64,000 nucleotides of DNA from contig NZ_JAFIQX010000005.1 in NCBI RefSeq assembly GCF_017356035.1, positions 221,368 to 285,367 on the forward strand, in the 5' to 3' direction. Under the pieces are notes generated by a model, which was given only the letters and a program-made list of their open reading frames with translations, searched no databases and was not told the DNA's origin. The stretch is from Longitalea luteola (GTDB lineage: Bacteria > Bacteroidota > Bacteroidia > Chitinophagales > Chitinophagaceae). The position numbers were made by a program, and so were the translations under genes. The stretch's first letter is position 1. Each line of letters starts with the position of its first letter. Below are positions 28,670 to 32,635 of this stretch, in pieces.

Positions 28670-29233
28670 ATGCATGAGATAGAACCATTTTATAATTGGC
28701 GTCACATTTACACCAGTGAGCAGGATGAGCGGTCACCGTTTTTCGGAAGGGTGTATTCTGAGTTTACATTTTCACAAACTGTTTACAATTATTATATCCA
28801 TCCGCAGTGGGACGATTTCGGTTCCCGCACCATGTACCTGAAAACATTAATGGCCGATTATGAAGAGAAGTATGCGATCATAGAACTGATCGGTGAATGG
28901 AACGATGCGATAGAAAATGATATCATGGAGCTGAAGCGGGAGGTAACCGACGTTTTTTTCTACGAGGGTATCAGCAAGTTCATTTTCATTGCCGAGAACG
29001 TACTCAATTTTCATAGCGGCGATAAAGACTATTACCAGGAATGGTTTGAAGAAGTGACCGACGAAGAAGGCTGGATCGTGATCCTCAACATGCCCGAACA
29101 AACGCAATACGACTTCAAAGGAGCCCGCCTGAATCGCTACGTTGAACTGATGGATCTCGATAACTGGCGCACTTATAAGCCCTTCCATTTGTTCAAAAAA
29201 ATTGATGAACAAATGCGCAAAAGGCTTGAATAA
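28670..29233 (+). CDS. Conserved Bacteroidota hypothetical protein
   Basis: A 187-residue acidic soluble protein with no signal peptide, rich in aromatic residues (YNWRHIY, VYNYYIHPQWDDFGSRTMYLK). I recognise it only as a conserved hypothetical in Bacteroidota. No catalytic motif is obvious. It ends 100 nt before the promoter of the phe/tyr attenuator, so it could be upstream of that operon but is probably separate. Confidence 0.65.
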   Translation: MHEIEPFYNWRHIYTSEQDERSPFFGRVYSEFTFSQTVYNYYIHPQWDDFGSRTMYLKTLMADYEEKYAIIELIGEWNDAIENDIMELKREVTDVFFYEGISKFIFIAENVLNFHSGDKDYYQEWFEEVTDEEGWIVILNMPEQTQYDFKGARLNRYVELMDLDNWRTYKPFHLFKKIDEQMRKRLE

Positions 29234-29331
29234 ATTTGAAAACCGGTTTTTTAATTCGCTGAAAAGCAGTCCCAGACTGTGTTTTACACTAAAACGGGTG
29301 GGTTGGGGACAGTAGAATTATCTGAAAAAAG

Positions 29332-29362
29332 TTTGCATGTAAGTATTTAGTTATTATTTTTG
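29332..29362 (+). promoter_or_regulatory. Promoter (TTTG-N19-TATTTTTG) of the aromatic amino acid operon
   Basis: TTTG at 29332-29335 and TATTTTTG at 29355-29362 have the ideal 19-nt spacing. The leader peptide ATG at 29368 is only 5 nt after the -7 box, so its mRNA would be leaderless or nearly so. Confidence 0.8.
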
Positions 29363-29367
29363 ATGTA

Positions 29368-29460
29368 ATGATTACAGCAAAGGCATACCGTTTCTTTTAC
29401 TTTTATTTTTATTTCTACTTTACCAGTAGGCCGGGAATGCTTTTGTTGACAACAAAATAA
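29368..29460 (+). CDS. Phe/Tyr leader peptide of the aromatic operon attenuator
   Basis: A 30-codon frame (ATG 29368, TAA 29458-29460). It starts MITAKAYR, and codons 9-18 (29392-29421) read FFYFYFYFYF; with Tyr7 there are six Phe and five Tyr codons. It ends TSRPGMLLLTTK. This is the composition expected of a ribosome-stalling leader that senses charged tRNA-Phe and tRNA-Tyr. It lies between a consensus promoter and an intrinsic terminator, upstream of pheA and tyrA. It is too short for standard gene calling. The role is inferred from the established attenuation mechanism of enterobacterial phe, trp and his operons. Confidence 0.85.
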   Translation: MITAKAYRFFYFYFYFYFTSRPGMLLLTTK

Positions 29461-29517
29461 GAATAAACAAAAAGTTCAACATAAGAAGTCCCGGCGAAAA
29501 AGCCGGGACTTTTTTTA
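29429..29517 (+). promoter_or_regulatory. Transcription attenuator of the aromatic operon
   Basis: The terminator is AAGTCCCGGC (29486-29495) paired over 10 bp with GCCGGGACTT (29502-29511), loop GAAAAA, then a run of T to 29517. GCCGGGA in the leader (29430-29436), just after the Phe/Tyr codons, is complementary to TCCCGGC of the terminator 5' arm and can form an antiterminator when the ribosome stalls early in the run. TTTTGTT-GAC-AACAAAA (29441-29457) is a further small hairpin. Terminator seen directly; the switch is inference. Confidence 0.78.
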
Positions 29518-29564
29518 TTGCTTTTTAATCCCCCGTTCAACGGGTAAAGCATAAAAAAAAATCT

Positions 29565-30455
29565 ATGATCGACCGAAAACAACAACAGGAGATCACGCCA
29601 GGCTCCAATGGCATGCAGGGTACAGGCATAAAGGTTTCTATCCAGGGATATGAAGGTAGTTTTCACCAGGTAGCAGCCCGCCAGTTCTTCGGCAAAAATG
29701 TAGAAGTGATCCCCTGCGCCACCTTTCGCGAACTAACCAGGATCGCCAGCAGCAAAAAGGAAAGTAATGGTGGCGTGATGGCCATCGAGAACTCCATCGC
29801 CGGCAGCATCTTACCCAACTACAACCTGTTGCAGAAGAGCACCCTGAAGATCATTGGAGAAATATACCTGCCTATAAAACAACAACTGTTAGTTAATCCC
29901 GGCGTACAACTGGAAGACATCCGCGAAGTGCATTCCCACCACATGGCCATTCAGCAGTGCCTTGAATACCTCGACAAATACAACTGGAAGCTGGTAGAGA
30001 CTGAGGATACCGCCTTAAGCGCCAAACATATTCACCAGCATCGCAGTAAACACATCGCCGCCATCGCCAGCAAACTCGCCGCCGACCTGTTCAATCTCGA
30101 AGTGATCGCCCCCAACATACATACCATGAAAAACAATTATACCCGGTTCCTGGTGCTGCAACCAGAGGAAGTAGCGCAACCGGTAGCTGATGCCAATAAA
30201 GCATCGGTGAGCTTTATCACCGATCACTCGCGCGGCAGCCTGGCCCGGGTACTTACCCGCATTGCCGATGGCGGCATCAACCTGAGCAAGCTGCAAAGTT
30301 TTCCCATTCCCGGCAGCGACTGGAAATACAGTTTTCATGCAGATATGGAATTCACTACGCAGGATCAGTTTGAAGAGGTTATTAAAAATATGAAGCCGAT
30401 CACGGAAGAGTTGAAAGTGTACGGCGTTTATAAGAATGGGAAGACTGTTGAATAG
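29565..30455 (+). CDS. pheA: Prephenate dehydratase
   Basis: A 296-residue monofunctional prephenate dehydratase converting prephenate to phenylpyruvate. The catalytic domain starts with VSIQGYEGSFHQVAAR near residue 24, has GVMAIENSIAGSI near 70, and ends with NNYTRFLVL near 190, which holds the Thr-Arg-Phe catalytic triplet. The last 85 residues are an ACT domain (GSLARVLTRIADGGINLSKLQSFPIPG), the expected site of phenylalanine feedback. The usual ESRP motif is replaced by QSFP. No chorismate mutase domain is attached; that activity is fused to DAHP synthase at 34658. First structural gene after the Phe/Tyr attenuator. Confidence 0.92.
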   Translation: MIDRKQQQEITPGSNGMQGTGIKVSIQGYEGSFHQVAARQFFGKNVEVIPCATFRELTRIASSKKESNGGVMAIENSIAGSILPNYNLLQKSTLKIIGEIYLPIKQQLLVNPGVQLEDIREVHSHHMAIQQCLEYLDKYNWKLVETEDTALSAKHIHQHRSKHIAAIASKLAADLFNLEVIAPNIHTMKNNYTRFLVLQPEEVAQPVADANKASVSFITDHSRGSLARVLTRIADGGINLSKLQSFPIPGSDWKYSFHADMEFTTQDQFEEVIKNMKPITEELKVYGVYKNGKTVE

Positions 30456-30604: not shown

Positions 30605-31783
30605 ATGCAAACTTCAAAAAGATTGGAAGGAATTGGCGAATACTATTTTTCGCAAAAGCTGCGGGAGATCGATGAGTTGAACAAGCAGGGCAGGAACGTG
30701 ATCAACCTGGGCATTGGCAGCCCCGACCTGCCGCCGCATGCCGATGTGGTAAAGACCCTGCAGGAAGAAAGCGCCAAACCCAATGTACATGCTTATCAGA
30801 GTTATAAAGGCTCGCCGGTATTGCGTAAAGCCATCAGCGACTGGTATAAGAAATGGTATGATGTAGAACTGAATGCCGATACAGAGATATTACCACTGCT
30901 GGGCAGCAAGGAAGGCATTATGCACATTTGCATGACCTACCTGAATGCAGGCGATAAAGTGCTGGTACCCAATCCCGGCTATCCTACCTACAGAAGCGCC
31001 GTTAAACTGGCCGGTGGCGAATGCGTTGATTACGATCTTACGGAAGCCAATAACTGGGAGCCTGATTTTAATGCGCTGGATAAACTGGTGGCTGCCGGTG
31101 GGACATTTAAATTAATGTGGATCAACTATCCGCAAATGCCGACGGGGCAACTACCGTCTGTTAGCCTGTTCGAAAAGATCGTGGCCTTCGGTAAAAAGCA
31201 TAACATTCTTGTTTGTCATGATAACCCTTATTCTTTTATCCTGAACGACAACCCCACGAGTTTACTGCGGGTGCCCGGGGCGAAGGAAATAGCGATCGAG
31301 CTGAATTCGCTCAGTAAATCGCACAATATGGCCGGCTGGCGGGTAGGGGTCTTGAGCGGCGCCAAAGAGCGCATCGATGAAGTACTGCGGTTTAAAAGCA
31401 ATATGGACAGCGGTATGTTCCTTCCCGCACAATTAGCGGCTGCCAAAGCATTACAATTACCAAAGAGCTGGTACGATGAAGTGAATGCTATTTACAAAAA
31501 GCGTCGTGAGAAAGTTTTTGAATTGCTCGATCTGCTGGAATGCGTGTATGATAAAAGCCAGGCTGGAATGTTTGTATGGGCCAGGATCCCGGCCGGCTAC
31601 AAGACCGGTTATGAGCTGAGCGATCAGGTGCTGTACAATACCGGGGTATTTATAACGCCCGGGGGCATTTTTGGAAAGGCAGGCGATGGCTATATACGGG
31701 TGAGCCTGTGCAGCACGGAAGAAAAGTTCGCAGAAAGCATTACACGGATAAAAGCATTTTTACCAGCATTAAAAGTTAATTAG
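30605..31783 (+). CDS. Class I/II aminotransferase, probably aromatic
   Basis: A 392-residue fold-type I PLP aminotransferase. It shows NLGIGSPDLPPH near residue 36, YPTYRSAVKLAGG near 125, HDNPYSFIL near 205 (Asp and Tyr cofactor contacts), and NSLSKSHNMAGWRVG with the Schiff-base lysine near residue 238. It also resembles LL-diaminopimelate and aspartate aminotransferases. Its place between pheA and tyrA, three nucleotides before tyrA, suggests it transaminates phenylpyruvate and 4-hydroxyphenylpyruvate in the last step of Phe and Tyr synthesis. Specificity is inference from context. Confidence 0.82.
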   Translation: MQTSKRLEGIGEYYFSQKLREIDELNKQGRNVINLGIGSPDLPPHADVVKTLQEESAKPNVHAYQSYKGSPVLRKAISDWYKKWYDVELNADTEILPLLGSKEGIMHICMTYLNAGDKVLVPNPGYPTYRSAVKLAGGECVDYDLTEANNWEPDFNALDKLVAAGGTFKLMWINYPQMPTGQLPSVSLFEKIVAFGKKHNILVCHDNPYSFILNDNPTSLLRVPGAKEIAIELNSLSKSHNMAGWRVGVLSGAKERIDEVLRFKSNMDSGMFLPAQLAAAKALQLPKSWYDEVNAIYKKRREKVFELLDLLECVYDKSQAGMFVWARIPAGYKTGYELSDQVLYNTGVFITPGGIFGKAGDGYIRVSLCSTEEKFAESITRIKAFLPALKVN

Positions 31784-31786
31784 AGC

Positions 31787-32635
31787 ATGTTCAATACCGT
31801 TACCATAGTTGGTGTAGGATTAATCAGCGGTTCCTTCAGCCTGGCCCTGAAAGAGCGGGCGCTGGTTAAAAAAGTGATCGGTGTAAGCCGTACGGAGGCA
31901 AGTGCACAGAAGGCCATAGAGCTGGGCCTCATAGATGAAGCGCTGCCCCTGGACGAAGCGGTAAAACAGGCCGATCTCATTTATGTGGCCATCCCGGTTG
32001 ATGCTACCATCGGCGTTATGCAACAGGTGATGGACATGATAACCGATAAACAGATCGTGGCCGATGCAGGCAGCACCAAACATGCTTTGTGTTCTGCCAT
32101 AGCCAGCCATCCCATGCGTCACCGGTTTGTGGCCACCCATCCTATGTGGGGTACGGAATACAGCGGTCCGGAAGCAGCTGTGCGGAATGCATTTGCCGGC
32201 CGTTCCTGTGTGATCTGTGAAAAAGAAAAAAGTGATGCAGCCGCGGTTGCAACCATTGAAGACATTTACCGTCAATTGGGTATGCACCTGGTATACATGG
32301 ATGCCGACAGCCATGATATGCATACGGCCTATGTAAGCCATATTTCGCACATCACTTCCTTTGCCCTGGCCAATACGGTACTGGAAAAGGAAAAAGAAGA
32401 AGATACCATTTTCGAGCTGGCAGGTGGTGGTTTTGAGAGTACGGTTCGTTTAGCAAAGAGTAACCCGGCGATGTGGGTGCCTATTTTCAAACAGAACCGC
32501 GAGAACGTGCTGGATGTGCTGAATGAACATATCAGCCAGCTGCGCAAGTTCAAGGCCTGCCTGGAGAAGGAGAACTATGCTTATTTGCTGGAGTTGATAG
32601 AGCAGGCGAATAAGATCAAACGAATACTAAAATGA
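31787..32635 (+). CDS. tyrA: Prephenate dehydrogenase
   Basis: A 282-residue NAD(P)-dependent prephenate dehydrogenase giving 4-hydroxyphenylpyruvate. The Rossmann loop is GVGLISGS at residues 9-16. The catalytic region is ATHPMWGTEYSGPEAA near residue 117, and the C-terminal all-helical dimerisation domain includes HDMHTAYVSHISHITSFAL near 168. It starts 3 nt after the aminotransferase stop, so the two are translationally coupled. No ACT domain is present. With pheA it accounts for both branches whose products are read by the Phe/Tyr leader peptide. Confidence 0.92.
   Translation: MFNTVTIVGVGLISGSFSLALKERALVKKVIGVSRTEASAQKAIELGLIDEALPLDEAVKQADLIYVAIPVDATIGVMQQVMDMITDKQIVADAGSTKHALCSAIASHPMRHRFVATHPMWGTEYSGPEAAVRNAFAGRSCVICEKEKSDAAAVATIEDIYRQLGMHLVYMDADSHDMHTAYVSHISHITSFALANTVLEKEKEEDTIFELAGGGFESTVRLAKSNPAMWVPIFKQNRENVLDVLNEHISQLRKFKACLEKENYAYLLELIEQANKIKRILK

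Follow-up and report, generated by a model that had tools for sequence, protein, structure and literature searches.

A classical ribosome-mediated transcription attenuator very probably controls the pheA–aminotransferase–tyrA operon of Longitalea luteola, judging from the sequence of the DNA ahead of pheA and of its counterparts in related bacteria. In the window (the whole 64,000-nucleotide stretch that we analysed), this leader contains the features of the attenuator class: an ORF with control codons, a terminator, an antiterminator and a protector 1:2 hairpin that encloses those codons (Table 1). The attenuation reading, put forward in the original prediction, is supported by the presence of the codon run and the hairpin in relatives and by covariation of three helices.

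The predicted promoter letters, TTTG-N19-TATTTTTG, are present at the positions given for them. An ATG (29368-29370) lies 5 nt past the box and opens the 30-codon frame MITAKAYRFFYFYFYFYFTSRPGMLLLTTK (29368-29460), in the translation of which FFYFYFYFYF is indeed seen at codons 9-18. The 10-bp terminator with its T-run (29486-29517) can be read in the sequence as AAGTCCCGGC-GAAAAA-GCCGGGACTT (29486-29511) followed by the T tract to 29517; the terminator program lists the same hairpin as 29483-29514, with 13 pairs. Pfam and NCBIfam profile matches bore out the downstream order of pheA, aminotransferase and tyrA, and all 25 NCBIfam models shown for the aminotransferase score under their cut-offs. 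Genes for a DEAD-box helicase and a DAHP synthase-chorismate mutase come after tyrA. The nearest pheA found is that of Longitalea arenae (96% identical), followed by those of Niastella species.

Table 1. Features of the leader and the pheA operon in the window (window positions).
Feature	Position	Strand	Basis
187-aa gene directly upstream of the leader	28670-29233		Pfam, NCBIfam searched
Promoter: TTTG 29332-29335, 19-nt spacer, TATTTTTG 29355-29362	29332..29362	+	predicted Bacteroidota-type promoter
Leader peptide ORF, 30 codons, stop TAA 29458-29460	29368..29460	+	ORF listing
Region 1, CAAAGGCAT, codons 4-7, partner of region 2	29378..29386	+	pairing and covariation
Phe/Tyr run FFYFYFYFYF of the leader ORF, codons 9-18	29392-29421	+	translation
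Region 2: GCCGGGA 29430-29436, ATGCTTTTG 29437-29445, TGTTGA 29444-29449	29430..29449	+	pairing, covariation
Region 3: TCAACA 29476-29481, AAG 29483-29485, TCCCGGC 29489-29495	29476..29495	+	pairing, covariation
Predicted intrinsic terminator (3:4), stem 29486-29495 with 29502-29511, T tract to 29517	29486..29517	+
Region 4, terminator 3′ arm	29502-29511	+	pairing
pheA, prephenate dehydratase	29565..30455	+	PF00800 191.6 bits, cut-off 25.2
Aminotransferase class I/II (LL-diaminopimelate-aminotransferase-like)	30605..31783	+	PF00155 205.8 bits
tyrA, prephenate dehydrogenase	31787..32635	+	NF006307 371.2 bits, cut-off 295; PF02153, PF20463

The original prediction proposed a comparison with the regions upstream of pheA in other Chitinophagaceae, and its outcome was favourable: the codon run and the hairpin recur in 79/79 loci, and all three helices covary. 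The set was built from the best 80 of 113 pheA loci; two (L029 and L043) were left out for having less than 100 nt of upstream sequence, and the remaining 78 plus the window make up the 79. The Phe/Tyr-rich ORF starts 99-254 nt before the pheA match start, beginning with GTG in one locus (L051), and the terminator-type hairpin always follows it. In three loci (L049, L071, L078) the hairpin ends just past the start of the tblastn match, and the pheA start there is putative. A hairpin kept without the run, the pattern that had been named as contradicting the prediction, was seen in 0 of the 79 loci. The order pheA-aminotransferase-tyrA was found in all 72 family-set loci having 3 kb of downstream DNA.

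As a control, we scored an ORF with at least six Phe or Tyr residues in nine as a leader. By this definition leaders are present in 78/79 real upstream regions, 0/79 reverse complements and 4/395 dinucleotide shuffles; with at least seven residues, the counts are 75, 0 and 0. The weakest leader ORF (L076) has five in nine. The 79 leaders represent 75 distinct peptides, and no frameshifts were seen inside the Phe/Tyr run among the 79 loci.

With 1623 T among the 2373 bases of the runs, one might suspect a merely U-rich, low-complexity stretch that has no coding role. The codons leave this explanation next to no probability. Phe or Tyr is encoded by 722/791 run codons, while shuffling the bases within the runs yields a mean of 364 such codons and a maximum of 388, and on the reverse strand a Phe/Tyr ORF is found in 0/79 loci. 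Synonymous codons are mixed (302 TTT, 113 TTC, 167 TAC and 140 TAT), and neither TTA nor TTG occurs among the 69 run codons for other amino acids, which indicates selection on the amino acids read rather than on U-rich RNA.

Terminator-like sites are not enriched in the 64-kb stretch (8 found vs 6.1 expected), so the case for the hairpin rests on its conservation and covariation. The original prediction had noted that GCCGGGA (29430-29436) is complementary to TCCCGGC in the terminator arm; this pairing is present and covaries in relatives. GCCGGGA:TCCCGGC forms the first helix of a 2:3 antiterminator, and TGTTGA:TCAACA plus CTT:AAG form a second one, in which codons L26-T28 pair with 29476-29481. 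Region 2 (29430-29449) has a double use, as the 5′ side of the antiterminator and the 3′ side of the 1:2 hairpin, and region 3 is the antiterminator 3′ side and includes the 5′ arm of the terminator. The earlier account lacked the 1:2 hairpin, the second helix of the antiterminator and the nearly leaderless start, which are added here.

Own partners mostly pair better than shuffled ones. For 2:3, z lies below -1 in 79/79 loci (median -4.6), for 1:2 in 65/79 and for 3:4 in 79/79, the last figure being partly circular as the hairpins were found by a hairpin search. Own pairing is also stronger than the mean of swapped partners in 66/79 (2:3), 59/79 (1:2) and 72/79 (3:4) loci. On average, 1:2 pairing (-14.3) is weaker than 2:3 pairing (-22.0).

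Covariation was measured on a MAFFT alignment of the 79 loci against 500 shuffles, which leave relatedness uncontrolled, and against slid versions, which retain it. In the terminator, 96.9% of cells are paired, 6/10 pairs show changes on both sides, and 45 cells are changed on both sides vs a shuffle mean of 3.8. The corresponding numbers of cells are 70 vs 28.2 for the antiterminator and 41 vs 14.8 for the 1:2 hairpin (81.2% of cells paired), and for each helix 0/500 shuffles are as high. The percentage paired, the both-side cells and the covariation score drop in every slid version for all three helices. When pairs rather than cells are counted, both-side changes do not exceed the controls in the antiterminator (40/500 shuffles as high; 10 at slide -1 vs 8) or in 1:2 (57/500 shuffles; 8 at slide -2 vs 7), and neither do further pair types in the antiterminator (291/500 shuffles as high). 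MAFFT misplaces a 13-member VVFAKA clade by one column, which lowers the covariation counts.

Compensatory changes can be seen directly, with ACCGGG and CCCGGT in place of GCCGGG and CCCGGC, and GTTAA and TTAAC in place of GTTGA and TCAAC. The reading frame of the CCGG core varies, being 0 in 54 leaders, 2 in 14 and 1 in 5 (6/79 lack the exact core), which points to conservation of the RNA rather than of the peptide at this place. In a clade swap test (58/79 rows fall in clades A, B and C), pairing proved clade-specific for A vs B in 1:2 and 2:3, with little specificity within clades; region 2 of clade C pairs with region 3 of clade A equally well as with its own.

We placed the downstream edge of the ribosome, by assumption, at 12 nt, counted from the first A-site base. 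When the ribosome occupies the last Phe/Tyr codon, this edge falls -3 to +3 nt (median -1) from the first paired base of region 2 in 79/79 loci, and with a ribosome at the stop codon it lies 16 nt (median; 11-30) before the region 3 core. The distance to region 2 was taken from the duplex; anchoring on CGGG, which mis-set some rows, gave a median of 1 (range -7 to 5). When pairs across the ribosome are forbidden, a ribosome stalled in mid-run leaves region 3 mostly paired prior to synthesis of the 3′ arm (mean 0.95; above 0.8 in 78/79), and one at the stop codon leaves it mostly free (mean 0.08; below 0.2 in 73/79). Given the 12-nt edge and this ban, the spacing is that expected of attenuation; once pairs are allowed to span the ribosome, the two states separate poorly (0.95 stalled vs 0.80 at the stop).

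From these parts, their conservation, pairings and spacing, all read from the DNA, we infer a start site, translation, stalling, a direction of response and sensing of both Phe and Tyr. RNA polymerase would start at or slightly before the leader ATG, and a ribosome would initiate on the nearly leaderless RNA and stay close behind it. A shortage of charged tRNA-Phe or tRNA-Tyr would stall the ribosome within FFYFYFYFYF, where it would block 1:2 pairing and leave region 2, one footprint downstream, free. Free region 2 would capture region 3 in the two-part antiterminator ahead of region 4 synthesis, and transcription would read through into pheA. With both amino acids plentiful, the ribosome would reach the stop codon just beyond region 2 and cover the far end of that region; region 3 would thereby be left free, the 3:4 terminator would form, and transcription would end. 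In an untranslated leader, the 1:2 hairpin would tip the balance towards termination.

In equilibrium folds of the full-length RNA, mean values favour the terminator in every state (0.83 to 1.00), that with a stalled ribosome included (mean 0.83; 0.999 for the window), so antitermination would have to be kinetic. The trp attenuator, too, is taught as a kinetic switch. Under the model that permits pairing across the ribosome, an RNA free of ribosomes has region 3 largely paired (0.92) ahead of 3′ arm synthesis; basal termination would thus depend on the order of folding.

Promoter-like sites, like terminator-like ones, are not enriched in the 64-kb stretch (6 sigma-70-type sites found vs 8.7 expected). 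In a search 10-22 nt ahead of the leader start, an exact TAnnTTTG nevertheless begins at 11-21 nt in 65/79 loci (median 15), vs 1% of shuffled upstreams with the box at that spacing. A TTTG precedes this box by 17-21 nt in 37 of the 65, and the other 14/79 upstream regions carry variants of the box or no clear box. The quoted Bacteroidota promoter consensus places the box at -7 (PMC7366714), so the 5′ UTR of the leader RNA would be roughly 0-10 nt. The leader mRNA, with its predicted start site, is thus most likely nearly leaderless. In B. thetaiotaomicron, only about 3.7% of 5′ UTRs are reported to be shorter than 10 nt (PMC7366714), and 5.5% of F. psychrophilum mRNAs to be leaderless (PMC9723704).

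To see how far the leader extends, we used a phylum sample of 158 genomes, in 138 of which PF00800 was found. Upstream regions were taken for 56 loci, a choice that was not random (5 from the family, 29 from the order and class, and 22 others, the last mostly with unfused pheA). The leader is present in 33/56 loci, vs 0/56 reverse complements and 1/280 shuffles, and outside the family in 28/51. By family, the counts are 5/5 in f1, 2/2 in f2, 5/5 in f3, 15/15 in f5, 2/4 in f8 and 1/1 each in f9, f14, f17 and f32; the 21 loci of f4, f10, f13, f15, f16, f24, f26, f28 and f29 combined yielded no leader (0/21), the f29 locus comprising 353 bases. A terminator lies within 130 nt of 32/33 leaders and was not found within that distance in L154. 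For 2:3 complementarity, z is below -2 in 28/32 leaders of the sample and in 24/27 outside the family, pairing being weak in L143, L153, L172 and L181. The arms differ in sequence and remain complementary (GAGGC/GCCTC, CAGGATT/AATCCTG). Some hairpin-plus-T, mostly A+T-rich, is listed for 7/23 leaderless loci.

In families f3 and f5 the box, if found, is mostly 23-37 nt upstream of the leader start (18 in L161), which suggests that the nearly leaderless form belongs to the window's family rather than to the class. It seems typical of the Chitinophagaceae-set leaders, judging from box positions, with exceptions both ways: the box is at 29 nt in L172, at 16 in L144 and at 14 in L188.

Downstream DNA (4 kb) was examined for 38 of the 56 loci, with matches at E 1e-4. 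Among loci with the leader, an aroG-type gene is near pheA in 20/20 (at 30% identity in L225), and in 15 of those 20 the aminotransferase and tyrA genes lie between the two. Among leaderless loci, pheA is alone in 16/18, and 2/18 have pheA-aminotransferase-tyrA. These counts indicate that the leader and the aromatic gene cluster go together, with kinship as a confounder. The natural contrast is offered by L155 and L163 of family f8, which keep pheA-aminotransferase-tyrA and in which neither leader nor hairpin was found. Four loci (L145, L152, L156, L160) have a Phe and Tyr leader and pheA followed by an aroG-type gene, with tyrA not found in the 4 kb. Trp occurs in 14/33 phylum-sample leaders vs 10/79 family-set leaders, and the Trp-containing leaders may possibly sense the third aromatic amino acid. 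A pattern scan of 195 genomes matched in 72; its tally was set aside, as the backward control also matched, pointing to a noisy background.

Could the hairpin instead belong to the gene upstream (28670-29233), with the short ORF being incidental? The product of this gene had no match in Pfam or NCBIfam. Between 29233 and 29483 the plus strand has no listed terminator-like site, and L010, L035 and L067 have a similar C-terminal protein tail ahead of the leader, both in favour of such an origin. Yet a promoter-like box stands between gene and hairpin, the ORF is kept in 79/79 loci with codon-level selection, and the terminator arm covaries with leader codons, which together make this origin very improbable; the hairpin might play a double role, serving both the leader and the upstream gene. 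Comparably improbable is a mechanism other than transcription attenuation: translation coupling, reinitiation, or a leader peptide that causes arrest or works in trans. There is a precedent in S. meliloti peTrpL, which derives from an attenuator and is reported to act in trans (PMC7298713). Here, however, the leader stop is 104 nt from pheA in the window, while Bacteroidetes leader genes are described as peaking at 11-14 nt (PMC4833913), and beyond the run it is the RNA that is conserved, with a core read in three frames and not as one peptide.

A harder question within classical attenuation is what the leader senses. Our account of it as a two-input OR gate, in which one nearly leaderless attenuator, old within the class and tied to clustered pheA, tyrA and aroG, answers a shortage of either Phe or Tyr, is one that we hold with even confidence and doubt. 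Reporting on both by a single leader would fit its codons and the gene order: all 79 runs hold 3-7 Phe and 2-6 Tyr, at least two Tyr are present in 33/33 phylum-sample leaders, and tyrA is downstream in 72/72 loci. The attenuator might instead sense Phe only, with the Tyr codons as spacers or historical remnants. We consider this the less probable case, albeit one to be taken seriously: Phe codons outnumber Tyr codons in the runs (415 vs 307), the first gene of the operon is pheA, and the C. glutamicum leader AroR (Phe-Tyr-Phe) is reported to respond to Phe limitation and not to Tyr availability (PMC11802643).

AroR, which precedes the aroF operon, is the closest Phe/Tyr precedent, sharing a Phe-Tyr-Phe leader, ribosome stalling and an aromatic operon with the element described here. 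As described, it differs in that three aromatic residues are named, in the DAHP synthase gene and in showing no Tyr response (PMC11802643).

Across the 64-kb window there were 0 Rfam matches at the gathering score, and no T-box or riboswitch match. Among 4227 Rfam families, Phe_leader (RF01859) matches 29300-29600 best; the match spans the whole model and scores 34 bits vs a gathering score of 55, which leaves the stretch outside that family. When eight relatives were compared with Rfam at E 0.1, four matched Phe_leader (35.1-39.3 bits), and no other family appeared. RF01859 is the enterobacterial pheA (pheL) attenuator, likewise a Phe-codon leader peptide upstream of pheA, and its model pairings are presumably of the 1:2, 2:3 and 3:4 type. 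By analogy, the Longitalea leader would work like the pheL attenuator; it differs in having Tyr codons too, in its phylum, in the nearly leaderless start and in having tyrA in the operon.

Within the phylum, the closest precedent, as far as the description in the F. psychrophilum transcriptome report goes, is the structured 5′ element that Flavobacteriaceae have ahead of pheA (PMC9723704). For amino-acid operons, that report speaks of "strong clues" of attenuation by leader peptides. Gene and phylum are the same, whereas the relevant portion of the report names no Phe/Tyr run, pheA-specific mechanism or wider distribution (PMC9723704). The 15/15 leader loci of f5 may be kin of this element. 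The original statement that no Phe/Tyr leader of this form had been described in the phylum is thus partly anticipated; it holds insofar as no detailed description of a Phe/Tyr leader in Bacteroidota was found in the open-access literature searched. As for other systems, the S. meliloti trpL attenuator shares an RNA reported to begin, leaderless, at the leader ATG (PMC7298713), and differs in the amino acid (Trp) and lineage (Alphaproteobacteria). The Bacteroid-trp RNA motif (RF01692) is also listed for Bacteroidetes (PMC2864571); it has no match in the window at the gathering score and is absent from the 20 matches at E 1 for 29300-29600.

Other leader-like elements were noticed in the same genome. 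An attenuator-like leader lies upstream of hisG on the minus strand of the window (51026-50893), with a TATTTTTG box starting 17 nt before the ATG, a 17-codon ORF MIIFIHIHHHHHTYLSR (51009-50956 including the stop) and a hairpin (50921-50893) with a poor T tract. On contig C11, locus L201 has a Trp leader, MKKQLQNNHWWWHTNSKRGL (ORF at 727), upstream of a chorismate-binding (trpE-like) gene; there follows a hairpin, CCCCGAC-GATACT-GTCGGGG, with a T tract, and the hairpin 5′ arm contains AGCCCC, complementary to AGGGGCT of the leader. A second Phe/Tyr run, on contig C22, runs antisense to a longer gene and is probably fortuitous. In the near-upstream DNA of the loci examined, no Thr or Ile/Val leader was convincing.

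The leader is ordinary in kind, well supported, widely distributed and little described in the phylum. It assigns regulation to a core biosynthetic operon, and permits testing whether one leader senses two amino acids. Ribosomes of this class are reported not to recognise Shine-Dalgarno sequences (PMC9976891). If the OR gate is true, ribosomes must follow RNA polymerase closely across a class without such recognition. An attenuator that covaries in the family and is present in other families of the class would imply close coupling of transcription and translation in the class, for which it could serve as a simple reporter.
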